A stretch of 64,000 nucleotides of DNA from an uncultured Paracoccaceae bacterium. Its GTDB lineage: Bacteria > Pseudomonadota > Alphaproteobacteria > Rhodobacterales > Rhodobacteraceae. A program made the position numbers and the translations under genes. This document shows, piece by piece, positions 42,097 through 60,172 of this stretch; position 1 is the first letter of the stretch; every line of letters starts with the position of its first letter. The notes beneath the pieces were generated by a model. It was given only the letters and a program-made list of their open reading frames with translations, searched no databases and was not told the origin of the DNA. The stretch is from the NCBI GenBank assembly GCA_947499725.1, contig CANMPK010000003.1, positions 62,001 through 126,000 of the forward strand. Reading direction: 5' to 3'.

Positions 42097-42112
42097 TTGT
42101 AAAAATTTGTAA
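42097..42112 (+). promoter_or_regulatory. Tandem TTGTAA box upstream of ketoglutarate-semialdehyde dehydrogenase
   Basis: The 16-mer TTGTAAAAATTTGTAA carries two TTGTAA half-sites exactly 10 bp apart, 93 bp before the ATG. Nearly identical 16-mers precede the TRAP operon (54011) and kdgK (58509, minus), so it is a probable operator of the FadR-type regulator at 58.6-59.4 kb. Confidence 0.6.
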
Positions 42113-42204
42113 TATTGGTTGTTGGTTTTTATATGTATGACCGACTCGGTGAGTAGAATCTGTTGCTTGCCTAAATGCATTAGAAATTCCAACGTGAGGT
42201 GGAC

Positions 42205-43704
42205 ATGATTTTCGGAAAAAACTTGATCGATGGAGCTTGGCTAGATTCAAGCGACATGAGAGCCTCGGATGACTTGAATGGTCAGTCCTTTGCGCAAGCA
42301 ACGCCAGAGCAGTTGGACCAAGCGTGTAAGGCCGCTCGTCGCGATTTTCGGGCGTATGCTGCCGTATCTCGTAAAGACCGCGCAGCCTTCTTGCGTGAGA
42401 TTTGTACACAAATCGACGTTTTGGGTGATGAGATCACTCAAACGGCAATGGCTGAAACAGGTTTGCCTGAAGCACGCCTTATTGGTGAGCGGGGACGAAC
42501 AACAGGTCAGTTGGGCCTGTTTGCGAACTTGATTGAAGGTACAGACTATCTGGACATTCAAAGAGACGGCGCTCTACCAGATCGTGCGCCTCTGCCGCGT
42601 CCTGATCTGCGCTTGATGCACAAAGCGATTGGCCCTGTCGCCGTGTTTGGTGCATCCAACTTCCCACTAGCATTTTCCACTGCGGGTGGTGATACGGCTT
42701 CCGCTTTGGCAGCAGGTTGCCCCGTTGTTGTGAAGGGCCACAGTGCGCATGCGGGCACAGCTGAACTAGTTGCTCAGGCTATTGCGAAAGCAATTGAAAT
42801 CTGCGGCATGCCAAAAGCGACGTTCCAAATGGTTCAAGGCTCCGGTCGTGTGATTGGTTCCGCATTGGTTCAGCACCCTGAAATCACAGCGGTTGGCTTT
42901 ACTGGCTCTTTGGCTGGTGGTCGCGCGCTTTATGACCTGTGCCATTCTCGCCCAACACCGATCCCTTTCTATGGTGAGTTGGGATCTGTGAACCCAATGT
43001 TTGTTCTGCCAGAGGCGCTGAGTGCGCGCGCTGCAGACATCGGCGCTGGTTGGGCTGGGTCTTTGACAATGGGCGCAGGCCAGTTTTGTACAAACCCTGG
43101 CGTCGCTGTTGTCGTCGATGGGCCGGCAGTTGGCGCGTTTGAAGCAGCGGCAGTTGAAGCGCTGAAAGGCGTTGCCGAGCAAAAGATGCTTACAGATGGC
43201 ATCCACGATGCATACGTCAAAGGCGTTGCGAGCTTCGCTGAGTTGATGACCGAGATCGCATCTTGTGGTGTTGCAAACGGTGCGCGTTCGGCGCTTCCAG
43301 CTTTGTTTAAGATCTCCGCAAAAGAATGGATGGCGAACCCTGCTTTGCAGGAAGAGGTATTTGGTGCTGCGGGTATTTTGGTTGTTTGTGAAACCAAAGA
43401 GGAAGCCGTCTCATTAGCTGAATCCCTGGAAGGTCAACTGACCGCAACGCTTCATTTGGACGACACAGATGTAGAATTTGGCAAACAACTCATGCCGATT
43501 CTTGAAGAAAAAGTTGGTCGCGTTTTGGCCAATGGCTTCCCAACTGGCGTAGAAGTTTGTTCTTCAATGATGCACGGTGGCCCTTACCCGGCAAGTACAG
43601 ATGTGCGTGCCACGTCAGTCGGGACATTGGCGATCGTGCGTTGGTTGCGCCCAGTTAGTTATCAAAACATTCCAACTGCGTTGCTGCCCGAAGAGCTGCA
43701 ATAA
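42205..43704 (+). CDS. Alpha-ketoglutaric semialdehyde (2,5-dioxopentanoate) dehydrogenase
   Basis: NADP-type aldehyde dehydrogenase of 499 residues. Catalytic Cys295 is in GQFCTNPG and the general-base Glu258 in FYGELGSVNP. VFGASNFPLAFSTAGGDTASALAAGCPVVVK is the family-specific nucleotide/substrate region (split: VFGASNFPLAFSTAGGD). It oxidises alpha-ketoglutaric semialdehyde, the end of oxidative uronate, glucarate or pentose routes. ATG 42205 has GAGG five bases upstream. The gene carries the tandem TTGTAA box shared with kdgK and the TRAP operon, linking it to uronate metabolism. Confidence 0.88.
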   Translation: MIFGKNLIDGAWLDSSDMRASDDLNGQSFAQATPEQLDQACKAARRDFRAYAAVSRKDRAAFLREICTQIDVLGDEITQTAMAETGLPEARLIGERGRTTGQLGLFANLIEGTDYLDIQRDGALPDRAPLPRPDLRLMHKAIGPVAVFGASNFPLAFSTAGGDTASALAAGCPVVVKGHSAHAGTAELVAQAIAKAIEICGMPKATFQMVQGSGRVIGSALVQHPEITAVGFTGSLAGGRALYDLCHSRPTPIPFYGELGSVNPMFVLPEALSARAADIGAGWAGSLTMGAGQFCTNPGVAVVVDGPAVGAFEAAAVEALKGVAEQKMLTDGIHDAYVKGVASFAELMTEIASCGVANGARSALPALFKISAKEWMANPALQEEVFGAAGILVVCETKEEAVSLAESLEGQLTATLHLDDTDVEFGKQLMPILEEKVGRVLANGFPTGVEVCSSMMHGGPYPASTDVRATSVGTLAIVRWLRPVSYQNIPTALLPEELQ

Positions 43705-43710
43705 ACAGAA

Positions 43711-43735
43711 AAGGCCAGAGCATTGCTCTGGCCTT
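43711..43735. terminator. Bidirectional terminator
   Basis: AAGGCCAGAGC pairs with GCTCTGGCCTT around ATT, followed by TTT on the plus strand and by a T-rich run on the other. It lies between the convergent dehydrogenase and GntR genes. Confidence 0.9.
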
Positions 43736-43759
43736 TTTCAAATTACGGAATGTATTTAT

Positions 43760-44446
43760 TTAAGCATCTTCAAAGTAATGTGCGTTCGTTGCTTCGATAG
43801 CAGCGATCGTTTCGTCCAAGCGAGACAAATGTATACGGCAAGCAGCGACCGCTTCTTCAGGTTCGCCATTTACCACGTGCTTTGCAATGTTCTTATGGTC
43901 TTTAAGGAGCTCGTGCATGCGCGCTTCTTTCGACAGTCCCAAAGCGCATAGCCGGTCAACCTTCGCTTTTTCTTCTTGAATTATTTCAAAGGCATAGTCG
44001 GCATTTGCGATGCTGCAGATGGTTTTGTGAAACTCGTAGTCCAGAGCCCCGAAGGCATCTAGATCTTCGTTATCCACTGCGACGGCTTGCTTATCCAAGC
44101 TGTCTTCTAGAAGTTTTTCCGCGCTGGCGTCGCTATTGAGAGCCGCGCGGCGCAAAACCTCGGCTTCGATCGCTGCGCGTACAAAACGGGACTTTTCAAT
44201 TTCTCGAATAGAGAAACGTTTCACTTCAGTCGCTCGTTGAGGGCGGATCAACAGAAGGTCTCTGTTGGCCAGGCGGCTAAACGCGTCACGTACAGGTTGG
44301 CGCGATACGCCAAACTGAGTGGCGATTTCCGCCTCTGAAATTTTGTCTCCAGGCATTAGCCGTAGCGAGCAGATTTCATCTTGCAAATATGCAAAGATCT
44401 CATCAACTGCTGTTCGACGAATGCGCGCTGGCTTGAGATCGGCCAT
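43760..44446 (-). CDS. GntR-family (FCD domain) regulator of the alginate-type operon
   Basis: GntR regulator of 228 residues. The winged HTH (about 10-75) includes LMPGDKISEAEIATQFGVSRQPVRDAFSRL (core SEAEIATQFGVSRQPVRDA). The C-terminal FCD all-helical domain has metal-binding His/Asp positions such as DYEFHKTI. GGGAGA precedes the ATG. It is divergent from the ABC transporter/lyase operon, and the intervening region carries two copies of a near-palindromic site. It therefore most likely represses that operon and is released by an uronate ligand. Confidence 0.9.
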   Translation of the reverse strand: MADLKPARIRRTAVDEIFAYLQDEICSLRLMPGDKISEAEIATQFGVSRQPVRDAFSRLANRDLLLIRPQRATEVKRFSIREIEKSRFVRAAIEAEVLRRAALNSDASAEKLLEDSLDKQAVAVDNEDLDAFGALDYEFHKTICSIANADYAFEIIQEEKAKVDRLCALGLSKEARMHELLKDHKNIAKHVVNGEPEEAVAACRIHLSRLDETIAAIEATNAHYFEDA

Positions 44447-44542
44447 GTCATTCTCCCTCGCTTAAGGCTCTATGGACAATCCCTCCTCCGTCCACAAGCC
44501 TGTAGTAAACTTGGTTAGGCTTTAGCGACTTTCTTTTCAACC

Positions 44543-44554
44543 CTAGTATTCCAG
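44543..44554. promoter_or_regulatory. Operator copy 1 for GntR regulator
   Basis: CTAGTATTCCAG, an imperfect palindrome and near copy of the site at 44563-44574. Centres are 20 bp apart, so both face the same side of the helix. It falls between a possible -35 (TTTTCA, 44534) and -10 (TAATAC, 44558). Confidence 0.55.
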
Positions 44555-44562
44555 TTTTAATA

Positions 44563-44574
44563 CTAGTATACCAG
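44563..44574. promoter_or_regulatory. Operator copy 2 for GntR regulator
   Basis: CTAGTATACCAG, 10 of 12 positions palindromic, overlaps the possible -10 region of the algS-like operon, about 96 bp before its ATG. The core GTATAC is typical for FCD-type GntR operators. Confidence 0.6.
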
Positions 44575-44669
44575 TTCCATCGGCGATTCGAGTTAAGGAT
44601 GATTCTTATCTGGAATCGGGGGAAGGACGCGACCAATGGGTCGCACTACAAAGGAAAGAGGGAGGAGCC

Positions 44670-45764
44670 ATGTCCGGTGTTCAATTGGATGGCATCGTAA
44701 AGGCGTACGGAAGCGTACAAGTCGTTCACGGAATTGACCTAAATGTAGAGGAGGGTGAGTTTGTTGTACTCGTTGGCCCTTCAGGATGTGGTAAGTCCAC
44801 GACCCTGCGCATGGTTGCGGGTCTAGAAGAAATTACTGGCGGTGATCTTACGATCGACGGACGCGTTATGAATAACGTAGCTCCGAAAGACCGCGATGTT
44901 GCGATGGTTTTCCAGAACTATGCGCTTTACCCGCACCTGACGGTTGCGAAAAACATCGGTTTCGGTTTGCAGATCCGCAAAGTACCAAAGGACGAGATTG
45001 AAAAATCCGTTAAAGAAGTAGCTGAAATTCTTGGTCTGACAGAATATTTGGAACGCCGTCCGGCGGACCTTTCTGGTGGTCAACGTCAGCGTGTTGCGAT
45101 GGGCCGTGCGATTGTTCGCCGCCCTAAAGTGTTCCTGTTTGATGAACCGCTGTCTAACCTTGATGCGAAGCTGCGTACGCAAATGCGCGCAGAGATCAAG
45201 CGTCTACACCAACGCCTTGGCGCAACAAGCATCTATGTAACGCACGACCAAGTCGAAGCGATGACATTGGCAGACCGTATTGTTGTAATGCATGACGGCC
45301 GTATCGAGCAAATCGGTACTCCAATGGATCTGTTCAATAATCCAGTGAACACTTTCGTTGCGGGCTTTATCGGTTCTCCTCCAATGAACCAGTTCGAAGC
45401 AACTGTTGAAACATCTGATGGCGGCCCTTGTGTCACTGTTAACGGTGCGAAATTGGCACTGCCAGGTTTGGAAGAGCTAAGCGAAGGCCGTAAGGTTGTC
45501 GTAGGCGTTCGTCCAGAGCACGTTTCTTTGGAGAAAACTGAAAACACAAGTACGCTGCCGATCAACCTTGATCTGGTTGAAACACTTGGTTCAGAAGCTT
45601 TGTTGCATACGTCAGTTTCTGACAAACTGTTCGTCGTAAAGACAGAGACACGTGGTGAAGTTGAGCATTTGAACGCGGTGAAAGAAATCCACGTTCCAAC
45701 TGATCTGATCAAAGTGTTTGATGGCGAAACTGGTGTGGTTCTTGGCCAGGCGAAAGGAGCCTGA
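44670..45764 (+). CDS. ABC transporter ATPase (AlgS/MalK/UgpC type)
   Basis: ATPase of a carbohydrate importer, 364 residues. Walker A is GPSGCGKST (36-44), signature LSGGQRQRVAMGRAIVR, Walker B VFLFDEPLSNLD, H-loop YVTHDQ. The C-terminal regulatory OB-fold region (from about 240) is typical of MalK/UgpC. GGGAGGAG precedes the ATG. First gene of an operon with two LplB/YtcP-like permeases and a large binding protein, the arrangement of the Sphingomonas AlgSM1M2Q alginate importer. Confidence 0.92.
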   Translation: MSGVQLDGIVKAYGSVQVVHGIDLNVEEGEFVVLVGPSGCGKSTTLRMVAGLEEITGGDLTIDGRVMNNVAPKDRDVAMVFQNYALYPHLTVAKNIGFGLQIRKVPKDEIEKSVKEVAEILGLTEYLERRPADLSGGQRQRVAMGRAIVRRPKVFLFDEPLSNLDAKLRTQMRAEIKRLHQRLGATSIYVTHDQVEAMTLADRIVVMHDGRIEQIGTPMDLFNNPVNTFVAGFIGSPPMNQFEATVETSDGGPCVTVNGAKLALPGLEELSEGRKVVVGVRPEHVSLEKTENTSTLPINLDLVETLGSEALLHTSVSDKLFVVKTETRGEVEHLNAVKEIHVPTDLIKVFDGETGVVLGQAKGA

Positions 45765-45767
45765 TCC

Positions 45768-46697: not shown

Positions 46698-46709
46698 GGG
46701 GTTAGAAAA

Positions 46710-47591: not shown

Positions 47592-47626
47592 TGAATGTTG
47601 ATGAAAAGCGTAAAGGGAGGAAACTT

Positions 47627-49177: not shown

Positions 49178-49195
49178 GATCTAAAACTGATAATG

Positions 49196-49219
49196 CTCGG
49201 CAGCCTTTCGGCTGCCGAG
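49196..49219 (+). terminator. Attenuator hairpin between binding protein and lyase
   Basis: CTCGGCAGCC pairs with GGCTGCCGAG around TTTC, then TGTTTCTATTTTT. Strong intrinsic terminator shape. Downstream lyase expression must come from read-through or a second promoter. Confidence 0.85.
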
Positions 49220-49264: not shown

Positions 49265-51601
49265 ATGGACTCGACGACAAAAAAACGCCTCGCATATCTT
49301 GATGAACCACGTGCCGGACGACTGAACATTCAGTATTCCCCAACTGGTGGCGAAGCGATCGCGGAAAACCCTCCTCGGTTTAAGTGGCTTCCTGTTGTAG
49401 AGGAAGAGGCCACTTACGTTCTGCGTATTTCCCAAGATTCTGAGTATCCAGATGGCGCGACCATCTATTACAAAGATATTCCACTGAACTTCTTTACTCC
49501 TGATGCGACCTTGGAAGCTGGTGAGTACCACTGGTCCTATGCTGTTTGGGATGCAAAGGCTGATGCACCATCCACAAACTGGAGCCAGACACGTGAGTTC
49601 AGTGTTGCAGGTGGCATCTACGAGACACCTCTGCCAAGCCGTGAAACCCGTTATGCGGATGTAGACATGGCGCACCCTCGCTTGGTCATGGGGCCAAGCG
49701 ATCTGACAGAATTCAAAAAAGCACTGAAGACTGATCCTGACCACAACGGTTGGGCTGCCTTCTATGAAAAATCCGTTCTGCCTTGGATGGATCGCGAAGT
49801 GATGCGCGAGCCTGTTGGTTATCCCAACCATCAGCGCGTCGCGCCGATCTGGCGCCAGACATACATCGATTGCCAAGAACAAATGTACGCTATCCGCCAC
49901 TTGGCGATTGGTGGCCACGTCACCGATAACGCTGACATGATTGCGCGTGCAAAAGAATGGCTTTTGGAAACCGCAACATGGGATCCAATGGGCACGACCT
50001 CTCGTGGTTACACCGATGAATGGGCATACCGCGTCTGTAATGCTCTGACTTGGGGTTATGACTGGCTGTACAACGAGCTGTCAGAAGACGAACGCAAAAC
50101 AGTGCGAGCCGCTTTGCTTGAGCGTACTCGCGACGTTGCACATCACGCGATCCTACATGCGAACATTCACTTGTTCCCATATGATAGCCACGCTGTTCGT
50201 TCTGTTTCCTCCGTTATTGTTCCGGCATGTATCGCCATGTTGGGCGACGAAGATGAAGCTCTGGAATGGTTGAACTACTCGATCGAATTCCTGAACTGCG
50301 TTTACACACCTTGGGGTGACACAGATGGTGGTTGGGCGGAAGGTCCACACTATTGGATGACAGGTCAAGCCTATCTGGTTGAGGCCGCAAACTTGTTGAA
50401 AGGCTTCACTGGCATCAACATTTTCGCACGCCAGTTCTTCCAAAAGACAGGCGATATGCCGCTTTATACCAAGGCGCCTGACACGCGTCGTGCAACGTTC
50501 GGCGATGACTCTACAATGGGCGATCTGCCGTGCTTGAAAATTGGCTACAACCTGCGTCAATACGCGGGTGTGACTGGCAACGGCGCGTATCAGTGGTACT
50601 ACGAAGAGATCAAGCGCAACGATCCTGGCACAGAGATGATGTTCTACAACTACGGTTGGTGGGATCTGAACTTTGACGAATTGGTGTATCGTTCACTTTG
50701 GCCACAAGTCGAAGCCGTTCCACCAAAGGACATCGATAAGCTGCGTCACTTCAAAGGTGTTGGTTGGGCTGCAATCCAAACTGACATGCATGATCCTGAC
50801 AAGCATGTTCAGTTTGTGATGAAGGCGTCTAGCTTTGGGTCTATCAGTCACTCTCATGGTGACCAAAACGCATTCTGTCTGGCCGCTTATGGTGAAGATC
50901 TGTGTGTGCAGTCTGGTTACTACGTGGCCTTCAACAGCTCTATGCACCAAGATTGGCGCAAGCAGACTGTTTCTAAGAACGCGATCCTGATCAATGGTAA
51001 GGGTCAGTACGCGGGCCGCGATAAGTCTTTGCAGATGCGCTCGACAGGTGAAATCTTGGCGGCAGAAGAGCGTGAAGATCACATCTATATCAAGGGTGAT
51101 GCAACCAACGCTTACAAACTTACCTCTCCTGAGGTGACCTCTGTAACTCGTGAATACTATTACGTGCGAGACAGCTACTTCGTGATCATCGATAGCATCG
51201 ATGCTGAAGAAGAAGTTGAGATCGAATGGCGTCTGCACGCAAACCACGAATATGATTTGGGCGAAGGCTCATTCCGTATGAATGGCGAAAAAGCAGGCTT
51301 CTACGGTCAGGTTGTTTGGTCCGAAGGTGGCAAGCCAGAGATCACGCAAACGACGGGTTACCCAGGCGTGGATATGTCCGAAATTGAAGGCCTGCCAGTT
51401 GGCACCTTCATGAGCGCGAAATATCCAAAGTCTAAGCGTCATCGCATTGCGACACTGCTGGTGCCGTACAGCCTGAAAGAGCCAAAGCGTGTTTTCCACT
51501 TCATGGATGACCAAGGCTACGACGCTGACCTGTATTTCACAGACGCAGACGAAAACACATTCAAAGTTGTCATGAAAAAGCTCGCGGCAACTGGAATCTA
51601 A
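49265..51601 (+). CDS. Exo-type oligoalginate lyase, PL15-like (heparinase II/III fold)
   Basis: Heparinase II/III-family polysaccharide lyase of 778 residues, close to the 776 of Agrobacterium Atu3025 (PL15), an exolytic oligoalginate lyase. An N-terminal beta domain is followed by an (alpha/alpha) toroid and a beta-sheet domain. Candidate catalytic residues are His309 (DSHAVRSV), Tyr363 (GPHYWMTG) and His531 (ISHSHGDQNAF). Position 531 coincides with the Atu3025 His I recall from structural work. There is no signal peptide, so it acts in the cytoplasm on oligomers brought in by the adjacent ABC importer, releasing unsaturated uronate (DEH). AAGGA precedes the ATG. Other uronan substrates (for example heteropolymers) are possible. 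Confidence 0.85.
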   Translation: MDSTTKKRLAYLDEPRAGRLNIQYSPTGGEAIAENPPRFKWLPVVEEEATYVLRISQDSEYPDGATIYYKDIPLNFFTPDATLEAGEYHWSYAVWDAKADAPSTNWSQTREFSVAGGIYETPLPSRETRYADVDMAHPRLVMGPSDLTEFKKALKTDPDHNGWAAFYEKSVLPWMDREVMREPVGYPNHQRVAPIWRQTYIDCQEQMYAIRHLAIGGHVTDNADMIARAKEWLLETATWDPMGTTSRGYTDEWAYRVCNALTWGYDWLYNELSEDERKTVRAALLERTRDVAHHAILHANIHLFPYDSHAVRSVSSVIVPACIAMLGDEDEALEWLNYSIEFLNCVYTPWGDTDGGWAEGPHYWMTGQAYLVEAANLLKGFTGINIFARQFFQKTGDMPLYTKAPDTRRATFGDDSTMGDLPCLKIGYNLRQYAGVTGNGAYQWYYEEIKRNDPGTEMMFYNYGWWDLNFDELVYRSLWPQVEAVPPKDIDKLRHFKGVGWAAIQTDMHDPDKHVQFVMKASSFGSISHSHGDQNAFCLAAYGEDLCVQSGYYVAFNSSMHQDWRKQTVSKNAILINGKGQYAGRDKSLQMRSTGEILAAEEREDHIYIKGDATNAYKLTSPEVTSVTREYYYVRDSYFVIIDSIDAEEEVEIEWRLHANHEYDLGEGSFRMNGEKAGFYGQVVWSEGGKPEITQTTGYPGVDMSEIEGLPVGTFMSAKYPKSKRHRIATLLVPYSLKEPKRVFHFMDDQGYDADLYFTDADENTFKVVMKKLAATGI

Positions 51602-51675
51602 ACAACATGAACAAACGTCTGGCAGCGATCTGAAAAGGCGCTGTCAGGCGCAAACGACATCTTGGAGATGTAACT

Positions 51676-52008
51676 ATGACGGTCAAAAATTACTTTCCAG
51701 CGTCCGAAGCGCAGAAGGTTGATGCTGGCGGCGGCCTTTCCCGAAAGGTTGGCGCATATAACGACAACATCATGTGTGTTGAAGTGAAGTTCGAAAAGGG
51801 CACGGTTGCAGCGATGCACAACCACCCCCATGAGCAAATCACATACGTTATCTCAGGTAAGTTCGAGTTCACGGTAGGTGACGAAACCTACATCGTGACG
51901 GCGGGTGACTCTCTCTACAAAGAGCCACTGGTCATGCACGGCGCGACCTGCCTGGAAGCCGGCACACTGCTCGACATGTTCACGCCACACCGCGAAGATT
52001 TTCTTTAA
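51676..52008 (+). CDS. kdgF: KdgF cupin, unsaturated-uronate linearising enzyme
   Basis: Small cupin of 110 residues. Metal ligands are in MHNHPHEQITYVISG (His48, His50, Gln54) and His88 (VMHGAT). KdgF converts the 4,5-unsaturated monouronate released by lyases to the linear ketone (DEH/DKI), speeding a step otherwise spontaneous. It follows the lyase and precedes two candidate DEH reductases, exactly the expected order. GGAG precedes the ATG. Confidence 0.9.
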   Translation: MTVKNYFPASEAQKVDAGGGLSRKVGAYNDNIMCVEVKFEKGTVAAMHNHPHEQITYVISGKFEFTVGDETYIVTAGDSLYKEPLVMHGATCLEAGTLLDMFTPHREDFL

Positions 52009-52043
52009 TACGCCAACACTAAAATAATTAAGGGGCGAAAAAT

Positions 52044-52925
52044 ATGACTAAACCTGTAATCGGATTCATTGGCCTAGGCCTGATGGGCGGCAACATGGTC
52101 GAAAACCTTCAAAAGAAGGGTTTTGAAGTTGTCGTGATGGACCTGAACAAAGACGCTGTTGCGACTGTTCTGGGCCGCGGTAACGCAAAAGAAGCCTCTT
52201 CTCCTAAAGAATTGGCCGAGTCGTCTGATATCGTAATGCTGTGCCTGACAACGTCTGAAGTTGTCGAGAAAGTTGTCTATGGCGACAACGGTATTCTCGC
52301 AGGTATCAAAGAAGGCGCCGTGTTGGTCGACTTCGGTACATCCATCCCAGCGTCTACTCGTAAGATTGGTGCTGATCTTGCTGCGAAAGGCGCAGGCATG
52401 ATCGACGCGCCTTTGGGCCGTACACCTGCGCACGCCAAAGATGGTCTTCTGAACATCATGGCGGCTGGTGACAAAGCTACATTTGAAAAAGTTAAGCCGG
52501 TTCTAGACGAGCAAGGCGAAAACGTTTTCCACTTGGGTGCGCTTGGCGCGGGTCACGTGACCAAACTGATCAACAACTTCATGGGCATGACAACAGTTTG
52601 CACCATGAGCCAAGCTTTCGCGGTTGCAGAGCGTTCCGGCGTTGATCGTCAGCAACTCTACGACATCATGTCTACAGGTCCGTCGAACTCTCCGTTCATG
52701 GGCTTCTGTAAAAACTACGCAGTAGATGGCGTGAGCGATCTCGGTTTCTCTATCAACAACGCAAACAAAGACCTCGGTTACTTTGTGAAGATGATGGAAG
52801 ACCTGGGTTCCGTAGCTGACATCGCAGAAGCGACGTCTAAGAACCTGCAAGCTGCTGTCGATGCCGGTATGGGCGAAGGCAATGTTCCAGAGATTTTCGA
52901 CTACTTTGTGAAGCTCGAAAAATAA
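52044..52925 (+). CDS. Beta-hydroxyacid dehydrogenase family reductase (candidate DEH reductase)
   Basis: 3-hydroxyisobutyrate/tartronate-semialdehyde reductase-family enzyme, 293 residues. The NAD(P) motif is GFIGLGLMGGNM (8-19), the substrate loop is DAPLGRTPAHAKDGLL, and the catalytic Lys174 is in GHVTKLINNF. In some marine bacteria DEH reductase belongs to this family, elsewhere it is an SDR. The neighbouring SDR makes the division of labour unclear. Alternatives: 2-hydroxy-3-oxopropionate reductase. The unit is part of the lyase operon. Confidence 0.85.
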   Translation: MTKPVIGFIGLGLMGGNMVENLQKKGFEVVVMDLNKDAVATVLGRGNAKEASSPKELAESSDIVMLCLTTSEVVEKVVYGDNGILAGIKEGAVLVDFGTSIPASTRKIGADLAAKGAGMIDAPLGRTPAHAKDGLLNIMAAGDKATFEKVKPVLDEQGENVFHLGALGAGHVTKLINNFMGMTTVCTMSQAFAVAERSGVDRQQLYDIMSTGPSNSPFMGFCKNYAVDGVSDLGFSINNANKDLGYFVKMMEDLGSVADIAEATSKNLQAAVDAGMGEGNVPEIFDYFVKLEK

Positions 52926-52996
52926 TCAGCTCGTCTGAGCTTAAATTTTAAATGGTCTGCTGAGAAGTTGGCGGGCCATAATTCAAGGAAGAAACT

Positions 52997-53740
52997 ATGA
53001 AACTGCAAGGTAAAACAGCCATTGTTACTGGTGGCGGTCGCGATATCGGTCGTGCATGCGCTATGGCGCTGGCGGCTGAAGGTGCCAACGTTGCGATCAA
53101 CTATTTCAAGAGCGCTGAAGGTGCTAACTCAGCGGTTGAAGAAATTAAAGCAGCCGGCGGCAACGCAATTGCTGTGCAAGCGGACCTGTGCGATCAGGCT
53201 GGCGTAGACGAGTTTGTTGGTAAAACTGTCGAAGCATTCGGTGGCGTAGATATTCTTGTGAATAACACTGGCGGTTTAATCGCTCGTAAAACGCTGGCGG
53301 AAATGGACGTTGAGCACTGGCTTAAAGTCATGGACCTGAATGTCACAAGCACATTCATGATGACCAAAGCTGCGGTTGCGCAAATGAAAACTGGTTCTGT
53401 TATCAATCTGGCTTCCCAAGCTGGTCGTGATGGCGGTGGCGGTGGTTCTATCGCTTACGGTGCTTCCAAAGGCGCAATCATGACACTGACACGTGGCCTC
53501 GCAAAAGAGCTTGGTCCAGATATCCGTGTAAATGCGCTTTGCCCTGGCATGATTGACACTGATTTCCACAATATCTTCACCAAAGATGAGGTGCGCCGCA
53601 ATGTGGAAGCTGCGTCTCCTGTGAAACGTCAGGGTACATCTGAAGATATCGCCAATCTGGTAACGTTCTTGGCGTCCGAAGATTCTGCGTTCATGACCGG
53701 TACCAACGTCGACATTAACGGCGGCATGCTGTTCAGCTAA
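52997..53740 (+). CDS. Short-chain dehydrogenase, candidate DEH reductase (A1-R-like)
   Basis: Classical SDR of 247 residues: cofactor motif TGGGRDIGRA (11-20), NNTGG, catalytic Ser in NLASQAG and YGASK (Tyr154, Lys158). The fold and length match Sphingomonas A1-R, which reduces DEH to 2-keto-3-deoxygluconate (KDG). KdgK for the next step lies at 57.6 kb. Last gene before a strong terminator. Confidence 0.85.
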   Translation: MKLQGKTAIVTGGGRDIGRACAMALAAEGANVAINYFKSAEGANSAVEEIKAAGGNAIAVQADLCDQAGVDEFVGKTVEAFGGVDILVNNTGGLIARKTLAEMDVEHWLKVMDLNVTSTFMMTKAAVAQMKTGSVINLASQAGRDGGGGGSIAYGASKGAIMTLTRGLAKELGPDIRVNALCPGMIDTDFHNIFTKDEVRRNVEAASPVKRQGTSEDIANLVTFLASEDSAFMTGTNVDINGGMLFS

Positions 53741-53792
53741 GGTCTGTTCATAATTTTGGGATGTCGATTAGGTTGACGACCCTCGAAATCAT

Positions 53793-53818
53793 AAAGAGCG
53801 GCCCTAGGGTCGCTCTTT
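53793..53818 (+). terminator. Terminator of the lyase operon
   Basis: AAAGAGCG...CGCTCTTT forms a 12-bp stem (one G-T pair) around a TA loop, followed by TTA. It lies 53 bp after the SDR stop. Confidence 0.88.
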
Positions 53819-54010
53819 TACGTTTGCAACCATAGGAAGAAAGGCGCATTGTTTGAACATCGCAAAGGTTTTGCATGTAAACAAACTTAACCACTGAATT
53901 GATTCCAATTAGGGCATAAATCACAAGTTCATGAGGTGGTGACTTCGTCATATTGATCGTAAGTCATTGTTTTTTAACGATTAAAAAAAATCAAAAAAGC
54001 CTTGGAATAT

Positions 54011-54026
54011 TTGTAAATATTTGTAA
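54011..54026 (+). promoter_or_regulatory. Tandem TTGTAA box upstream of TRAP operon
   Basis: TTGTAAATATTTGTAA differs at one position from the box upstream of the dehydrogenase at 42097. Half-sites are 10 bp apart. It lies 49 bp before the receptor ATG. Confidence 0.6.
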
Positions 54027-54074
54027 CTCTACATGCCAAGACAAAACGTTCTTATGCCACTAAGGGAGGAAATC

Positions 54075-55064
54075 ATGGCATTTCAATCAATGAAAAAATA
54101 CGCGACTGGCGTAGCGGTTGTTGCAACATGCATGACAATCGGTACAGCATCCATGGCGAAAGACATGCGCGGCTGGAACATTCACGTTGAGGACTATCCA
54201 GTTTCTCACGGTATGGAAGCATTCGCAGCTGAGCTGGCGGAAAAAACTGGCGGTGACCTGACTGCTAAAGTTTTCCACGGCGGTGTTCTGGGTTCCCAGC
54301 CTGACGCGATCGAACAGCTGCGTCTTGGCGCACTGGACTTCGGTGTATTCAGCCTCGGGCCGATGGGTCAGGTTGTTCCGGAAGCAAACGTTGTTTCCCT
54401 GCCATTCATCTTCAAGTCTGTACCTGACATGTACCGTCTGATGGACGGCGAAGCAGGCGCGGCTCTGAGCGCAGGCCTGGAAGCAAAGGGCATTAAAGCT
54501 CTGGGTTACTACGATGCGGGCGCACGCTCCTTCTATAACTCCATCAAGCCAATCAACGAGCCTGCAGACGTTGGCGGTATGAAAATCCGCGTAATGAACA
54601 ACGACCTGTTTGTTGGCATGGTTGAGTCTCTGGGCGGTAACGCGACACCAATGGCGTTCGCGGAAGTTTATCAGTCCATCAAGACTGGCGTTGTAGACGG
54701 TGCGGAAAACAACCCACCATCCTACGAATCCACAAACCACTTCGAAGTGGCTGGCTACTACTCTATGTCTCAGCACTTGATCATTCCTGAGTGCCTGTGC
54801 ATGTCCCTGAAAACATGGGAATCCCTGTCTGCAGAGCAGCAGGAAATCGTAGCAGCAGCTGGTAAAGCGTCCACAGATCTACAGCGTCAGCTGTGGGGTG
54901 AGCGCGAAGCAGCTTCCATGGAAAAAGTTCTGTCCGGTGGCGTTGTAGTCAACGAAATCGCAGACAAAACACCATTCCAAGACGCGATGAAGCCAGTATA
55001 CGCACAGTTCCTGGAGCAAAGCCCAGATCTGGCTGACTTGGTTGCCCTGTTCCAAGCGAACTAA
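54075..55064 (+). CDS. TRAP solute receptor (DctP family), uronate locus
   Basis: Periplasmic receptor of about 329 residues with signal peptide (MAFQSMKKYATGVAVVATCM..SMA). The DctP Arg motif is in GGMKIRVMNNDLFVGM (about 167-182), with GVVDGAENNPPSYEST further on, typical of sugar-acid (galacturonate/KDG-type) DctP proteins. GGGAGGAAA precedes ATG 54075. An upstream frame from 54033 has no ribosome site. By context it binds unsaturated or keto-deoxy monouronates. A strong hairpin follows. Confidence 0.9.
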   Translation: MAFQSMKKYATGVAVVATCMTIGTASMAKDMRGWNIHVEDYPVSHGMEAFAAELAEKTGGDLTAKVFHGGVLGSQPDAIEQLRLGALDFGVFSLGPMGQVVPEANVVSLPFIFKSVPDMYRLMDGEAGAALSAGLEAKGIKALGYYDAGARSFYNSIKPINEPADVGGMKIRVMNNDLFVGMVESLGGNATPMAFAEVYQSIKTGVVDGAENNPPSYESTNHFEVAGYYSMSQHLIIPECLCMSLKTWESLSAEQQEIVAAAGKASTDLQRQLWGEREAASMEKVLSGGVVVNEIADKTPFQDAMKPVYAQFLEQSPDLADLVALFQAN

Positions 55065-55081
55065 TCTCGCTTAATATGTTT

Positions 55082-55109
55082 GGGGCACCCTTTGCAAAAA
55101 GGGTGCCCC
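55082..55109 (+). terminator. Hairpin between TRAP receptor and DctQ
   Basis: GGGGCACCCTTT pairs perfectly with AAAGGGTGCCCC around GCAA, followed by TATTCTTT, 17 bp after the receptor stop. Probably limits expression of the membrane subunits. Confidence 0.85.
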
Positions 55110-55127
55110 TATTCTTTGGAGAAAGAT

Positions 55128-55670
55128 ATGAGCAATACCCCCCCAATTGCGGATCGCCATCCTATCCTGAAAGTTCAGGATCTCTTGGCAAAACTGTGCA
55201 TCCTTGTTTGCGCAATTTGCCTAGTGATCTTGGTTGCCACTTTCGGCTGGTTGGTTTTTGGCCGCTATGTTCTGAACGTAACCCCGACTTGGGTTGAACA
55301 GCTTGCACTTCTGCTGATTTGCTACATCACCTTTATTGGTGCTGGCGTTGGCATTTACGAGAACACACACCTTGGCGTGACGATGTTCCGAGATGCGATG
55401 CCAAAAGCTGTACAAAAGCTCATCTTTATCCTGACAGATATCATTCTTGCCGGTTTTGGCGCGGTGATGCTGATTGCTGGTCTCGAGCTTTTCAATTTCG
55501 GCTGGAGTACTCTGCTACCAATGCTGAACATCCCTGAGAGTTTCCGCACATTGTCCTCCATCTTCTGTGGCGGCCTTCTGCTGACATTCGCAGGTATTCG
55601 CGCATGCCTACGGATTTCCGATTTCACAGGCCGCACTCACTTCATTCAAGATCAAGAGGAAATCTCTTAA
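55128..55670 (+). CDS. TRAP small membrane subunit (DctQ)
   Basis: Four-helix membrane protein of about 180 residues. The conserved FGRYVLNVTPTWVEQLALLLICYITF segment (core NVTPTWVEQLA) is the DctQ signature. Start at 55128 has GGAGAAAG upstream. The frame from 55080 begins inside the hairpin. It separates the receptor from the large subunit, with a 1-bp gap before DctM. Confidence 0.9.
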   Translation: MSNTPPIADRHPILKVQDLLAKLCILVCAICLVILVATFGWLVFGRYVLNVTPTWVEQLALLLICYITFIGAGVGIYENTHLGVTMFRDAMPKAVQKLIFILTDIILAGFGAVMLIAGLELFNFGWSTLLPMLNIPESFRTLSSIFCGGLLLTFAGIRACLRISDFTGRTHFIQDQEEIS

Positions 55671-55671
55671 T

Positions 55672-56952
55672 ATGGGCCTGACGATCCTTCTTTGTGTATT
55701 CTTCGGAAGCGTCTTCCTCGGAATTCCAGTTGCCTTTGGTATGGGTTTGGCTGCGTTGACAGCCTTCTGGTACGAAGGTTTCCCTTTGCTGATCACTTTC
55801 CAGCGTACGATCTCCGGTATTTCGGTGTTCTCGCTGCTAGCGATCCCATTCTTTGTTTTCGCCGGTGAGCTGATGCTGCACGGCGGTATTGCGATCCGCC
55901 TTGTGCGCTTTGCCTCTGCACTGGTTGGCCACATCCGTGGTGGTTTGGCCTCTGTAAACATCTTCTCTTCCATGCTGTTCGGCGGCATCTCTGGTTCTGC
56001 GATCGCGGATATTTCCGCGCTGGGTTCCTTGCTGATCCCGGTGATGAAAGAGCGCGGCTATCGCCCAGACTATGCTGTGAACGTTACGGTGACCTCTTCG
56101 ATTGCCGGTATCGTTATCCCGCCAAGCCACAACATGATTATCTATGCCATTGCAGCAGGTGGCGGGATTTCGATCTCGAAACTGTTCTTGGCTGGCGTTG
56201 TTCCAGGTATTCTAATGTGTAGCTGTCTGGCGCTCGCGGCCTATTTCTTGGCCCGAAAACACAATTATCCTGCGGAACCGTTCCCGGGCGTGAAAGCTGT
56301 TGCATTCAGTGCAGCGTCTGCGATCCCTGGTCTGGTCACAGCTGTGATCATCGTGGGTGGTGTTTTGTCAGGTGTCTTCACAGTGACAGAATCTGGTGCC
56401 TTCGGTGCGATCTATGCGCTTGTGCTGACAACATTCTTCTATCGTTCCCTAAGCTGGGAAGGTTTCAAAACCGCAGTTGTGTCTTCTGTAAAGACAACAG
56501 CGATGGTTATGATCCTGATTGGTTTCGCGAGCTCCTTCGCTTATCTGTTGGCCCTTTACCAAGTTCCAACAAAGCTGGGTAACTTGTTGATCGGTATCTC
56601 TGAAAACAAGGTCGTTATCCTTTTGATGATCAACGTTATCTTGCTGATCCTCGGTATGATCATGGACATGGCTGCGCTTCTGTTGATCTGTACGCCGATC
56701 TTCCTGCCTATCGCGAAGAGCATCGGCATGGACCCGACCCAGTTCGGTATCATGATGCTGATCAACCTTGGCCTTGGTCTTTGTACACCTCCGGTCGGCA
56801 CCTGTCTCTTTGTGGGTTGTGCTGTCGGTAAGATTAAGATTGAGCAAGCGTTGAAGTCGATCTGGCCATTCTATCTGGCACTTCTGCTGGCGCTCGTGTT
56901 GATCACATATGTTCCAGGGTTCTCCCTGTGGCTGCCATCTTTGCTGGATTAA
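55672..56952 (+). CDS. TRAP large membrane subunit (DctM)
   Basis: Large permease subunit of 426 residues with about 12-13 hydrophobic segments. SGSAIADISALGSLLIPVM, GIVIPPSHNMIIYAIAAGG and LGLCTPPVGTCLFVGC are canonical DctM motifs. It forms the sodium-coupled channel with DctQ. Redoxin gene starts 5 bp later. Confidence 0.92.
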   Translation: MGLTILLCVFFGSVFLGIPVAFGMGLAALTAFWYEGFPLLITFQRTISGISVFSLLAIPFFVFAGELMLHGGIAIRLVRFASALVGHIRGGLASVNIFSSMLFGGISGSAIADISALGSLLIPVMKERGYRPDYAVNVTVTSSIAGIVIPPSHNMIIYAIAAGGGISISKLFLAGVVPGILMCSCLALAAYFLARKHNYPAEPFPGVKAVAFSAASAIPGLVTAVIIVGGVLSGVFTVTESGAFGAIYALVLTTFFYRSLSWEGFKTAVVSSVKTTAMVMILIGFASSFAYLLALYQVPTKLGNLLIGISENKVVILLMINVILLILGMIMDMAALLLICTPIFLPIAKSIGMDPTQFGIMMLINLGLGLCTPPVGTCLFVGCAVGKIKIEQALKSIWPFYLALLLALVLITYVPGFSLWLPSLLD

Positions 56953-56957
56953 TCTGA

Positions 56958-57479
56958 ATGCCTGAAACTCTGGCTGCAAACTCACCTTTCCCAACGCTGG
57001 TTTTAAACCGCGTTGGGGGGGGCACCATCACAGTTGGCGCTGCGAAAGACAATTGGACCTTGTTTGTGGTCTATCGCGGTAAACATTGTGGGCGTTGCAA
57101 AAATTACCTGAACAAACTTGAAGAATTGAAATCCAGCTGGGAAAAGGCTGGGTTTGATATTGTTGTGGTCTCAGCAGATGCTGAAGCCAAAGCACAAGCA
57201 GATTTGGACGAATTTGGTTGGTCCTTCGACACGTGCCATAGTTTGTCTTTGTTGCAGATGCGCGCGCTAGGCGTGTTTGTAAGCACTCCGCTTTCGCCAG
57301 ATGAAGCCGATGCGCCATTTGCTGAGCCTGGGGTGTTCTGCATTACACCAGAAGGCAAAACGCAAATCGTTGCGATTTCAAATGGGCCGGCGGCCCGTCC
57401 TGATTTAGCTGAACTGTTGGATGGTATGATCTTCACGATCAAGAATGATCGTCCGGCACGTGGTGACGTTTCTCTTTAA
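56958..57479 (+). CDS. Redoxin (AhpC/TSA-like) protein of the TRAP operon
   Basis: Thioredoxin-fold protein of 173 residues. VYRGKHCGRCKNYLNKLEEL holds a CGRC pair where peroxiredoxins have a single peroxidatic Cys in PxxxTxxC, so it may be a peroxiredoxin-like or thiol reductase variant. VFCITPEGKTQIVAISNGPAARP follows in the C-terminal half. It is the last gene of the TRAP operon, followed by a terminator. Its role in uronate use is unknown. Protecting against reactive keto-sugars is a guess. Confidence 0.82.
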   Translation: MPETLAANSPFPTLVLNRVGGGTITVGAAKDNWTLFVVYRGKHCGRCKNYLNKLEELKSSWEKAGFDIVVVSADAEAKAQADLDEFGWSFDTCHSLSLLQMRALGVFVSTPLSPDEADAPFAEPGVFCITPEGKTQIVAISNGPAARPDLAELLDGMIFTIKNDRPARGDVSL

Positions 57480-57508
57480 GCGATGCCAATCACAAGCATC
57501 TAAAAGAA

Positions 57509-57535
57509 AAGGCCCCTAGCATCGCTAGGGGCCTT
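57509..57535. terminator. Bidirectional terminator, redoxin / kdgK
   Basis: AAGGCCCCTAGC pairs perfectly with GCTAGGGGCCTT around ATC, then TTT. It sits between convergent genes. Confidence 0.92.
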
Positions 57536-57557
57536 TTTGCATGAGAGGTTTGGTTGC

Positions 57558-58463
57558 TTAGACCAAATCATCAAAAGGGATCAGTGCGCCATGCTTGCAC
57601 ACAACTTGTGCCGCACAGTTTTGCGCAGCAATCACAGCATCGCCCAAATCACCTTTTTCGAAGTAAGAGGCCAAGAAGGCACCATTGAAAGAGTCACCTG
57701 CTGCAGTGGTATCTACAACGCCTTCTGCAGGGGACACAGGATGTACGCTCAACACGCCGCCTGTGAGCGATAGTGTCGCTGTCTCGCCGTTCTTAACAAC
57801 AACGGTTTCCGCACCCAGGCCAGCGTAGCGCTGTGCTGTGACCTCTGGGGATTCATCACCAAAACAAGCAGCTTCGTCATCAGAACTTGGAAGAACGATG
57901 TCCGAGATTGCCGCAGCGCCTTCGATGACCTTTTTCATACGATCTTTGTCGGCCCAGAGAGCAGGGCGAATGTTCGGATCAAAAGCAATTTTAGCGCCAT
58001 CTTTCAAATGGCTCCGCAGTTCTTGCAACAGCAGTTCAGCACCATCATCTTCGATGATCGCAAGCGTAATTCCGGACAGGTAGACAACATCAGCCTCTGC
58101 AACGCGTGCCCAAAGCGCCTCAGGATCTTTCATCAGCAGGCGAGCAGCTGATTGGCTACGCCAGTAGCTAAAGCTGCGCTCTGCGCCGTCCAGATGGATC
58201 ATATATAGGCCAGCAGAGCGATCTGAAACCTCTGTGCTTTTCTCGCAAGAAATTTCGGCGCTTTGAATGAATTCGAGCATTTCTTGAGAAAGCGGATCTG
58301 CACCAAAAGCAGAGTGAAAACCGATTTTCGCGTCTTCAGACATCTTTGCGCGTGCATACCACAAGGTGTTCAGCACATCGCCTGCATATTTCTTGCACAG
58401 AAGGCCATCTGAACGTTGGTTCAGTTCAACCATACATTCACCAATGCCTAAGATATTTACCAT
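57558..58463 (-). CDS. kdgK: 2-keto-3-deoxygluconate kinase
   Basis: PfkB-family kinase of 301 residues phosphorylating KDG to KDPG. N-terminal IGECMVELNQRSDG, substrate region RSQSAARLLM and the C-terminal anion hole/catalytic Asp TTAAGDSFNGAFLASY are typical for KdgK. It completes the route lyase, KdgF, DEH reductase, KdgK. KDPG aldolase (Eda) is not in the window. A tandem TTGTNA box lies 31-46 bp upstream. Confidence 0.92.
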   Translation of the reverse strand: MVNILGIGECMVELNQRSDGLLCKKYAGDVLNTLWYARAKMSEDAKIGFHSAFGADPLSQEMLEFIQSAEISCEKSTEVSDRSAGLYMIHLDGAERSFSYWRSQSAARLLMKDPEALWARVAEADVVYLSGITLAIIEDDGAELLLQELRSHLKDGAKIAFDPNIRPALWADKDRMKKVIEGAAAISDIVLPSSDDEAACFGDESPEVTAQRYAGLGAETVVVKNGETATLSLTGGVLSVHPVSPAEGVVDTTAAGDSFNGAFLASYFEKGDLGDAVIAAQNCAAQVVCKHGALIPFDDLV

Positions 58464-58493
58464 TGTTGTGCCTCGTGTGCCTTTAGAGTGGGG

Positions 58494-58509
58494 TTACAAA
58501 TTCTGACAA
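58494..58509 (-). promoter_or_regulatory. Tandem TTGTNA box upstream of kdgK
   Basis: On the minus strand TTGTCAGAATTTGTAA matches 14 of 16 positions of the boxes at 42097 and 54011, with the same 10-bp half-site spacing, 31 bp before the kdgK start. Confidence 0.6.
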
Positions 58510-58598
58510 ATATCTGTGTTTCCGAAGGGAGAATGTCAACCCGCTCAGGGTCAACATTTCCCAAAAAACACAAGGATTTTCGCCTTTGATTAAGGGCT

Positions 58599-59363
58599 CT
58601 ACAGAGTTTGGCCGTCTGTGCCTTGGAATACGCGCGTTCGCGCATTTTCGACATGAGATCGCATCGCGGCGCGCGCCGCCTCTGCATCAGCCGCTTCGAT
58701 TGCATTGAAGACGTCATAGTGCTCCGCTTGAACGAGCTCTAGGCGCGCTGCCGGATGGGTCAAAGACAGGTTCCGTGTGAGATTCATACCTGTCAGGATG
58801 TTGTCTTTCATCGAGCCGCGTGCCGACAAGAAATAGTGGTTATCTGCAGCCGTACAAACTGCGACGTGGAAAGCTTCATCCGCATCCACACCCAAAGTGC
58901 CTGTTTTGATGCAGTGATCAAGGTTGTCCAGTGCAGCTTTTAGACGATCAATATCAGCCGCTGTTCGACGTTGAGCTGCCAAAAAGGCGGCTTCGCCTTC
59001 TACAGCTGCGCGGAACTCGAATGTACGTTGAATATCGGCGATCGAGCCGACCGGCGCAAAGTCTAGCACGGCACTATCTGGGCGACGTTTCACAAAGGAG
59101 CCAGAGCCTTGGCGAGAGACGATGACATCGTCTTCTCGCAGCTGTTTTAATGCCTGTCGTAGGACAGGGCGGGAGACTTCGAATTGCTCACTAAGCTTTT
59201 GCTCAGTGGGAAGTTTGGAGCCAACTTCAATCTCGCCATCCATGATCATCGATAGAACGCGTTCGTAAACACGATCAGATAGGGTGCGATCCCGCACGGA
59301 CTTTTCGATGGGTTGAATGATAGACTTCGTTTGACGGCCTATCTTCCTGTTTCTTTTCTCCAC
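58599..59363 (-). CDS. FadR-type GntR regulator of uronate genes
   Basis: GntR regulator with FCD domain, 254 residues. The winged HTH at about 28-95 includes LPTEQKLSEQFEVSRPVLRQ and VSRQGSGSFV. The FCD domain has metal ligands around DADEAFHVAV and ADNHYFL. It overlaps the 3' end of the rraA-family gene by 25 bp and lies upstream of kdgK, so it probably autoregulates this group and binds the tandem TTGTNA boxes found at four promoters of the locus. KDG or a related keto acid is the expected effector (inference). Confidence 0.9.
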   Translation of the reverse strand: MEKRNRKIGRQTKSIIQPIEKSVRDRTLSDRVYERVLSMIMDGEIEVGSKLPTEQKLSEQFEVSRPVLRQALKQLREDDVIVSRQGSGSFVKRRPDSAVLDFAPVGSIADIQRTFEFRAAVEGEAAFLAAQRRTAADIDRLKAALDNLDHCIKTGTLGVDADEAFHVAVCTAADNHYFLSARGSMKDNILTGMNLTRNLSLTHPAARLELVQAEHYDVFNAIEAADAEAARAAMRSHVENARTRVFQGTDGQTL

Positions 59364-60055
59364 TGTGCAAACCTGTCGCTCGTTTCTGGGTCTGTTGGCG
59401 GGTACAAACCATAAGTCGACGCACCTGCCTTCACCATATCCATAACAAAGTCTTCAAAAATTGTCATTTCAACAGCTTCATCAGCTACATCATCTGCCAG
59501 ATGCGCAGGGATACATACAACCCCTTCATTGTCACCAACCATGACATCGCCTGGGAAAACAGACACTCCACCACATGCGATTGGGTCATTTACCGCTACA
59601 GCATGGTGTTTCGTGAGGTTTGTCGGAGCACTTGGGCGTGTGTGATACGCTGGCATGTCCATCTCAGCGATTTCTGGCGAATCTCGGAAGCCGCCATCTG
59701 TGATGATGCCGCGGCATCCACGAACCTCGAGGCGTTTCGCCAGGATGGAGCCAGCAGATGCTGCAGAAGCGTCTTGTCGCGAATCAATCACAAAGACAGC
59801 GCCAGCAGGGAATTCTTCAACGCCTTTACGCTGTGGGTTATCACGATCCGCAAAGGATTCCAGACCATCCAGGTCTTCACGCGCCGGGATGTAGCGAAGC
59901 GTATAAGCTGGCCCAACCATGTTTTCACCGGACGACAAACGCTGAGCATCTTGGATAAAGATGTTGCGCAGGCCACGTTTAAATAGGGCTGTCGTGAGGG
60001 TCGCGACGCTCACGCGCATGAGTTTCTGGCGCGTTTCGTCAGATAGCTGGGACAT
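59339..60055 (-). CDS. RraA-family protein (aldolase/decarboxylase-like)
   Basis: RraA/HMG-aldolase-fold protein of about 238 residues. The conserved VRGCRGIITDGGFRDSPEI segment (core GIITDGGFRD) supplies the metal/substrate Asp and Arg of class II HMG/CHA aldolases and oxaloacetate decarboxylases. CGGVSVFPGDVMVGDNEGVV follows. Starts at 60055 with GAAGAGAGAAA upstream. The frame from 60088 has no ribosome site. As first gene of a unit with the uronate regulator, it may act on a keto-acid product. RNase E inhibition is unlikely in this context. Confidence 0.85.
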   Translation of the reverse strand: MSQLSDETRQKLMRVSVATLTTALFKRGLRNIFIQDAQRLSSGENMVGPAYTLRYIPAREDLDGLESFADRDNPQRKGVEEFPAGAVFVIDSRQDASAASAGSILAKRLEVRGCRGIITDGGFRDSPEIAEMDMPAYHTRPSAPTNLTKHHAVAVNDPIACGGVSVFPGDVMVGDNEGVVCIPAHLADDVADEAVEMTIFEDFVMDMVKAGASTYGLYPPTDPETSDRFAQWRKETGR

Positions 60056-60131
60056 TTTCTCTCTCTTCTTCGTGTCTAAATCAAACATTCGATTGGAATG
60101 CGTTCATACAAAAGTATAAAAATGGAGGCTG

Positions 60132-60172
60132 TTGTCAATAATTTGTAAAATAATAAATTACAAATTTGACAA
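60132..60172. promoter_or_regulatory. Extended dyad with TTGTAA half-sites upstream of rraA
   Basis: TTGTCA (60132) and TTGTAA (60143) are mirrored by TTACAA (60158) and TGACAA (60167), an extended inverted arrangement of the half-site found at the other three boxes. It overlaps -35-like TTGACA sequences. Probable autoregulatory site of the FadR-type regulator. Confidence 0.5.

Follow-up and report, generated by a model that had tools for sequence, protein, structure and literature searches.

The 64-kb window analyzed here is the whole stretch of 64,000 nucleotides taken from an uncultured Paracoccaceae bacterium (positions 62,001 to 126,000 of contig CANMPK010000003.1, or G000:C3:62001-126000), part of a 3.15-Mb genome. 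From its genes, the 42–60 kb region is read as an alginate or unsaturated-uronate island. Four promoters in this region carry a tandem box, in which TTGT(A/C)A half-sites follow each other head to tail, and one of the four precedes rraA and the gene of a FadR-type protein with GntR and FCD domains (58599–59363). This protein is proposed to be a ligand-relieved repressor of alginate/uronate catabolism, which would act through the tandem TTGT(A/C)A operators and control rraA-fadR, a tripartite ATP-independent periplasmic (TRAP) transporter operon, kdgK and an aldehyde dehydrogenase gene. The probability of this reading, which rests on sequence comparison, is put at about 0.83. The boxes, the genes behind them and the regulator are the following:

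42097–42112, + strand: tandem box TTGTAAAAATTTGTAA, 93–108 bp before the aldehyde dehydrogenase gene; position weight matrix (PWM) score 29.0
42205–43704, + strand: aldehyde dehydrogenase (Pfam Aldedh, 1.6e-42); start taken as 42205
54011–54026, + strand: tandem box TTGTAAATATTTGTAA before the TRAP operon (dctP); PWM 29.1
54075–56952, + strand: TRAP transporter genes dctP, dctQ and dctM, open reading frames (ORFs) with labels read from translations; dctP start taken as 54075
57558–58463, − strand: kdgK, PfkB family, 2-dehydro-3-deoxygluconokinase-like (Pfam PfkB; NCBIfam KdgK 234.6 bits, under the cut-off of 400)
58494–58509, − strand: tandem box TTGTCAGAATTTGTAA, 31–46 bp before kdgK; PWM 21.0
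58599–59363, − strand: FadR-type regulator with GntR helix-turn-helix and FCD domains (Pfam 7.1e-21 and 2.7e-24), the proposed box-binding repressor
59339–60052, − strand: RraA-like gene (Pfam RraA-like, 2.7e-29; from the ORF list), overlapping the start of the fadR-type gene; alternative upstream ATG at 60088
60132–60148, + strand: 11-bp tandem box TTGTCAATAATTTGTAA of the rraA-fadR operator; similar boxes stand at rraA in relatives
60158–60182, − strand: opposed array of three half-sites (TTACAA, TGACAA and TAACAA on the + strand), which completes an extended dyad

Tandem boxes in the window

The original prediction described a 16-bp box at three promoters and the same half-sites as an extended dyad upstream of rraA. 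The pattern TTGTNANNATTTGTAA is recovered exactly at 42097–42112 (+), 54011–54026 (+) and 58494–58509 (−), and the 42-kb and 54-kb boxes are identical at 15 of 16 positions, as had been claimed. Within the window, TTGTNA-N4/5-TTGTNA as a strict pair turns up five times and always at the four promoters, which confirms the observation as a whole; at three mismatches the box pattern becomes noise (16 found, 18.3 expected). Upstream of rraA there are five half-sites, TTGTCA at 60132, TTGTAA at 60143, TTACAA at 60158, TGACAA at 60167 and TAACAA at 60177, two in one orientation and three in the other, and TTGTTATTTTTTGTCA lies within the opposed array at 60167–60182. The dyad is thus made of the predicted half-sites, but it ends at 60182 instead of 60172, and its first pair is spaced by 11 bp and not 10. 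A constant orientation relative to the gene, also predicted, holds for the three single boxes of the window and fails elsewhere, where the boxes of rraA, kdgF, the PL7 gene and pckA are reversed.

Conservation in ortholog loci

One scan of the collection gave 68 loci, 65 of which, together with L002 and L003, form the 67 ortholog rows (59–77% identity). Three remote loci (35–36% identity) are excluded from this count, and L003 is the same locus as L065, which leaves 66 distinct loci. The screening of the loci for neighbours covered only the window's own genes.

Head-to-tail TTGTNA pairs number 71 at a spacing of 10 bp and 46 at 11 bp in the 67 loci (70 and 46 without the duplicate L003), while the other spacings from 7 to 19 give 0–8 pairs each and three Markov copies of the loci give 0–4 pairs at 10 and 11 bp. 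Trained on these sites, a weight matrix exceeds a score of 17 in 59 of the 67 ortholog loci, and in all 77 loci scanned it finds 158 matches, compared with 3 in shuffled sequence of equal length (1.34 Mb); this recovery is partly circular, as the matrix was trained on these loci, whereas the spacing count is not. Boxes are also present in the gammaproteobacterial Leucothrix and Cocleimonas loci. With TTGT fixed by the search pattern, the fifth base of the first half-site is A in 63 and C in 3 of the 71 10-bp sites, and C in 23 and A in 15 of the 46 11-bp sites.

Within 300 bp upstream of the gene, a forward box is found in 40 of 47 dctP homologs and a reverse box in 21 of 49 rraA homologs. Boxes stand in the same interval before the short-chain dehydrogenase/reductase (SDR) gene sdr (9/48), fadR (7/67 loci), kdgF (5/24), kdgK (3/12), prx (2/10) and the aldehyde dehydrogenase gene (2/15). 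None was found there in the ortholog loci for abcS, abcM1, abcM2, sbp, dctQ, dctM, gntR2 and the lyase and beta-hydroxyacid dehydrogenase genes; the weight matrix detects weaker boxes in front of abcS in a few relatives, among them L039 and L044. TRAP genes lie near fadR in many relatives, and of the 28 box-less rraA genes, 23 (hand count) stand behind dctM on the same strand, and are therefore probably part of the TRAP operon.

Two palindromic elements were also seen in these loci. The classical palindromic layout of the same half-site, TTGTNACAA, occurs 22 times in the 67 ortholog loci. A short palindrome like GACAAATTGTC is located just before the dctP ribosome-binding site, about 40 bp past the box, in L020, L025–L027, L035, L037, L042 and L047, and may be a second operator at dctP.

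All 21 box-bearing rraA promoters have a T in front of TGACAA, which creates TTGACA overlapping the box; downstream of it, a TA follows after 17 bp in 19 of them and after 18 bp in 2. The promoters were selected by TNACAA-N4/5-TGACAA, so that TGACAA was part of the selection while the spaced TA was not, and the two elements are arranged as expected of a −35/−10 pair. The rraA promoter of the window has TTGACA and a less clear −10 element. The overlap of box and −35 element suggests repression.

Co-occurrence of boxes and regulator

The FadR-type gene is found in 14 of 394 genomes of the family at E 1e-70, the genome of the window included, and the regulator is therefore patchy; at E 1e-30 it is absent from all 8 congeners. 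Boxes were counted in whole genomes as matches to TTGTNANNATTTGTAA with at most one mismatch, with the reversed pattern as the control. The genome of the window contains 13 matches (6 exact) against 2 for the control, thus random matches in AT-rich gaps are not frequent. Thirteen other family genomes with an ortholog have 55 matches (9 exact) against 23, while the 8 congeners have 10 (none exact) against 10, and 17 family genomes without the ortholog have 11 (none exact) against 10. The latter are 17 of 20 genomes without a match to the regulator, three less complete ones being excluded. Exact boxes thus total 15 in the 14 genomes with the regulator and 0 in the 25 without it, and many of the additional matches in regulator-bearing genomes sit at island genes. 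By these counts, the box excess tracks the FadR-type regulator, and box and regulator occur together across genera and classes.

Because boxes and regulator co-occur, counts fall to control level without the regulator and the half-site is of the FadR-subfamily kind, the FadR-type protein is taken as the owner of the boxes and very likely binds them. As comparative genomics, the island regulon is secure.

The regulator and known systems

The FadR-type protein has a GntR winged helix (PF00392, 7.1e-21, residues 28–91) and a C-terminal FCD domain (PF07729, 2.7e-24). The FCD residues D162, H166, H215 and H237, which we take to be metal ligands, are at least 95% conserved in 68 sequences. The GntR domain is preceded by 27 residues, of which residues 1–24 are unconserved; the start codon is assumed.

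In the available part of PMC4494728, the FadR subfamily has the half-site NyGTM and usually a palindromic operator, NyGTM-N0-1-KACNy, with NanR as the direct-repeat exception. TTGT(A/C)A conforms to this half-site, whereas direct repeats at 10/11 bp, and not the usual palindrome, dominate here. The best matches of the FadR-type protein are the LldR model (122.2 bits) and the PdhR chain 9jpj (3.4e-27, the closest solved), although its family-model scores are far under the curated cut-offs. PdhR and LldR share the subfamily half-site, but differ in having the subfamily palindrome in place of head-to-tail half-sites 10–11 bp apart.

NanR from E. coli is a GntR repressor of the FadR subfamily with a sugar-acid regulon and tandem hexamer repeats at several promoters; the accessible text of PMC8012715 describes successive dimers on two or three GGTATA repeats and poor binding to one. 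The boxes have the NanR-type arrangement, with two or more hexamers in head-to-tail order at a fixed spacing, but the half-site is TTGTNA, mostly TTGT(A/C)A, rather than GGTATA, the sequence similarity is distant (6on4, E 5.9e-10) and the NCBIfam NanR model gives 89.9 bits against a cut-off of 260. A direct-repeat operator is thus unusual for a GntR protein, as the original prediction noted, with NanR as a precedent in the same subfamily. No report of a TTGT(A/C)A tandem operator was found in the literature searched.

HexR, of the RpiR family in gammaproteobacteria, exerts control responsive to 2-keto-3-deoxy-6-phosphogluconate (KDPG) over glycolysis, the Entner-Doudoroff pathway and pckA (PMC5507952, as far as available), a gene set like that of the core boxes described below; it belongs to an unrelated protein family and is only a functional analog. 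The alginate utilization locus of Vibrio sp. C42 contains GntR genes together with kdgF, kdgK and dehR (PMC13390454, in the part available), a likeness in gene content; no operator analysis was seen in that part, and the words "promoter" and "EMSA" are absent from the main text of the paper.

A 38%-identical FadR-type protein is encoded in G036, a genome from another family (L007/L266), with a gap on either side whose boxes score 29.0 and 24.9. These boxes, L266:6846-6861 and 7958-7973, are exact or near-exact and flank the gene, whose neighbours (labels read from translations) are a sugar-type ATP-binding cassette (ABC) transporter and ORFs resembling a dehydratase and an SDR, that is, a different catabolic cluster. 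Nine other remote loci (L004–L006, L008–L010, L076–L078) have one weak box match altogether, and a look for palindromes in front of distant FadR genes was without clear result. Because the G036 relative has boxes, tandem operators may be older than the alginate clade.

Island genes and the larger regulon

Two further stretches of the island are without boxes of their own in the list above:

43760–44446, − strand: second GntR-FCD regulator (gntR2; Pfam GntR + FCD), beside and divergent from the ABC operon, which has no box
49265–53740, + strand: DUF4962/heparinase-II/III lyase, KdgF-like cupin, beta-hydroxyacid dehydrogenase and SDR (Pfam)

The ABC and TRAP labels in the 42–60 kb region were taken from reading translations. 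The best NCBIfam models for the aldehyde dehydrogenase are far under their cut-offs, and its alpha-ketoglutarate-semialdehyde type is an earlier reader's label. The lyase is presumably PL15-like, while the beta-hydroxyacid dehydrogenase and the SDR are candidates for the reductase of 4-deoxy-L-erythro-5-hexoseulose uronate (DEH). KdgF, DehR, KdgK and Eda form a described uronate route (PMC13390454, available part), and from the gene set the island substrate is most likely an alginate-derived uronate, DEH or 2-keto-3-deoxygluconate (KDG). The predicted uronate regulon is supported to this extent; the ABC/lyase operon of the window is without a box and adjoins a GntR-FCD gene of its own. An imperfect dyad, GCGACCAATGGGTCGC, is located at 44629–44644 in the gntR2-ABC gap (window 43760–44669). 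The genes beside the island at 60241–63829, which we take from their translations to be a DUF1513-, imelysin- and di-haem-oxidoreductase-like set, are perhaps iron-related.

Outside the island, the genome has three exact and seven one-mismatch boxes. Two of the seven lie inside coding frames; the other eight boxes precede zwf1 (at −25), a PL7-type gene (−71), zwf2-edd-eda (−218), pckA (−193), fba, the atpH operon (two matches) and another TRAP dctP. By sequence comparison, the box marks a regulon of the FadR-type protein, as predicted, with more promoters than the original four. The PL7-type product looks secreted and contains Alginate_lyase2 and F5/8 domains. PL7 homologs (E 1e-30) occur in 6 of the 14 regulator-bearing genomes and in 4 of the 380 others (Fisher 1.2e-7, assuming that both searches covered the same 394 genomes). 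Three of the six (G000, the genome of the window, G235 and G015) have a PL7 box, while none of the four without the regulator does (best G159 at PWM 13.5, none in the other three); whole loci were scanned because the PL7 gene starts are uncertain for G258, G376 and G275 and a contig end truncates the G015 locus. Second-TRAP genes have boxes nearby in G235 as well and, about 450 bp upstream, in G021. The secreted PL7 alginate lyase, the second TRAP gene and the zwf-edd-eda operon are probably controlled by the FadR-type protein in this genome. As no eda was noticed among the island genes examined, the regulon would gain the step missing there, the KDPG aldolase, through the box at zwf2-edd-eda.

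Boxes at core-metabolism promoters

Several of these boxes lie close to the palindrome GTTAGCGCTAAC, which we take to be the CceR site; its letters were not found in the literature, among the matches listed. It is separate from the box, as GTTAGCGCTAAC or a close variant is kept at the zwf genes of congeners that have no box. The gap between box and CceR-like site is 11 bp at zwf1 (exact site), 0 at fba and 108 bp at zwf2 (one mismatch each), and 3 bp at pckA and 5 bp at atpH (two mismatches each). Ten CceR-like sites with at most one mismatch occur in this genome, four of them at these core boxes, whereas at two mismatches the pattern is unspecific (43 sites, reversed control 281). The gap that separates the atpH operon from a methyltransferase-like ORF (L177, box at 2529; G000 C1:76004-76043) contains two opposed boxes and a CceR-like site with two mismatches. 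CceR is a LacI-family regulator of alphaproteobacteria, and in the available part of PMC11323563 the proteins that depend on it include Zwf, Pgl, Edd, Eda, Pgi, PckA and Fba in P. denitrificans and ATP synthase in R. sphaeroides, a set that covers the core genes with boxes here.

It is tentatively proposed, at slightly less than an even chance, that in this species the alginate repressor has been extended into core metabolism: new boxes beside CceR sites at zwf-pgl-pgi, zwf-edd-eda and pckA, and probably also at fba and the ATP-synthase operon, would let alginate catabolites tune the switch between Entner-Doudoroff pathway and gluconeogenesis, pckA would have come under the regulator on a separate occasion in one or more further genera (G235), and tandem binding would be a wider habit of the FadR branch (G036). 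The evidence, from one genome and one pckA case, is suggestive.

Alternative explanations

A serious possibility, though short of even odds, is that the island boxes are real and the core boxes (zwf, zwf2, pckA, fba, atpH) are due to chance or belong to another species-specific regulator. Boxes as a general feature of zwf genes were rejected, since 15 zwf upstream regions in the 13 other regulator-bearing genomes score at most 7.7 and only the genome of the window has them. Among core genes the single second case is pckA of G235, whose gap contains two boxes of lower score (18.5 and 17.7) next to a 15-mer, GTTAGCGCAATCATT, common to G000 and differently placed, which suggests independent capture; a one-mismatch match near pckA in G289 is located at the 3' end of that gene. 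Nor are the non-island matches intergenic more often than the chance matches of congeners (8 of 10 each; three of ten family matches, near a contig end, were skipped), and of the five CceR-like sites near the core boxes, two are recovered only at the unspecific two mismatches. Chance is opposed by the ten non-island matches against a whole-genome control of 2 (Poisson tail 4.6e-5, the atpH pair counted as two), and by scores of 23.7 at zwf1, 21.9 at zwf2 and 18.4 at pckA, the genes covered by the congener comparison, where the best of the 8 congeners reaches 8.6. Moreover, 5 of 9 independent non-island places are within 0–108 bp of a CceR-like site, with P about 2e-6 if the 43 windows make up about 2.8% of intergenic DNA (a hand estimate assuming 12% intergenic, with a window chosen post hoc).

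For the boxes as a whole, other owners were considered. The OmpR/PhoB family binds head-to-tail sites about 11 bp apart, and the 11-bp form resembles a Pho box. A response regulator of this type would explain the direct repeats with one-turn spacing, and a histidine kinase gene lies opposite pckA. However, in different orders and classes exact boxes go together with the FadR-type gene, the control-level counts in the 25 regulator-free genomes are not explained by a core response regulator, and the half-site fits NyGTM; the idea was set aside as the box excess follows the FadR-type gene, and is very unlikely. Binding by the second GntR-FCD protein, of the same island and the same domain composition, is still less probable: the gap before its own gene (44447–44669) has no box above PWM 8, and it is found in 18 of 78 loci at E 1e-15, of which three have a usable start and at least 50% identity, while boxes are present in 59 of the 67 ortholog loci. 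Least probable is that the boxes are promoter elements and not operators. TTGTAA does resemble a −35 element and the rraA box contains TTGACA with its spaced TA, but a promoter needs no two or more phased copies, the distance and orientation of the box relative to the gene vary, and box counts are at control level where the regulator is missing.

Several observations weigh against the FadR-type protein acting through these boxes. No box at one mismatch or less is found in G089 and G126, two of the 13 ortholog-bearing genomes; 8 of the 67 ortholog loci have none above PWM 17; and the PL7 loci of the regulator-bearing G264, G243 and G275, scanned whole, have none above PWM 13. NanR cooperativity requires a 32-residue N-terminal extension (PMC8012715, text available), whereas residues 1–24 are unconserved here. 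The loci, many from Roseibium and roseobacters, are not phylogenetically independent, and G152/L023, G250/L015 and G235/L044 look like the same assemblies, so that the genome and locus sets are not fully independent either.

Proposed mechanism and significance

In the favored model of repression by the FadR-type protein, the operator would be a head-to-tail array of at least two TTGT(A/C)A half-sites spaced by 10 or 11 bp, sometimes closed into a dyad. The protein would cover the −35 element of the rraA-fadR unit, to which its own gene belongs, and so repress it, and would likewise control the TRAP operon, kdgK and the aldehyde dehydrogenase gene. Repression would be lifted by a product of uronate breakdown, for instance KDG, KDPG or DEH, a guess from the gene set.

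If this model is true, the box would add to NanR a second case of head-to-tail operators in the FadR subfamily, one that is widely conserved and offers a defined half-site, two spacings and natural variants by the dozen, and the reading of an asymmetric repeat by a symmetric dimer would become directly testable. If the core boxes work, a patchily distributed pathway regulator would have been wired into central carbon metabolism within one species.

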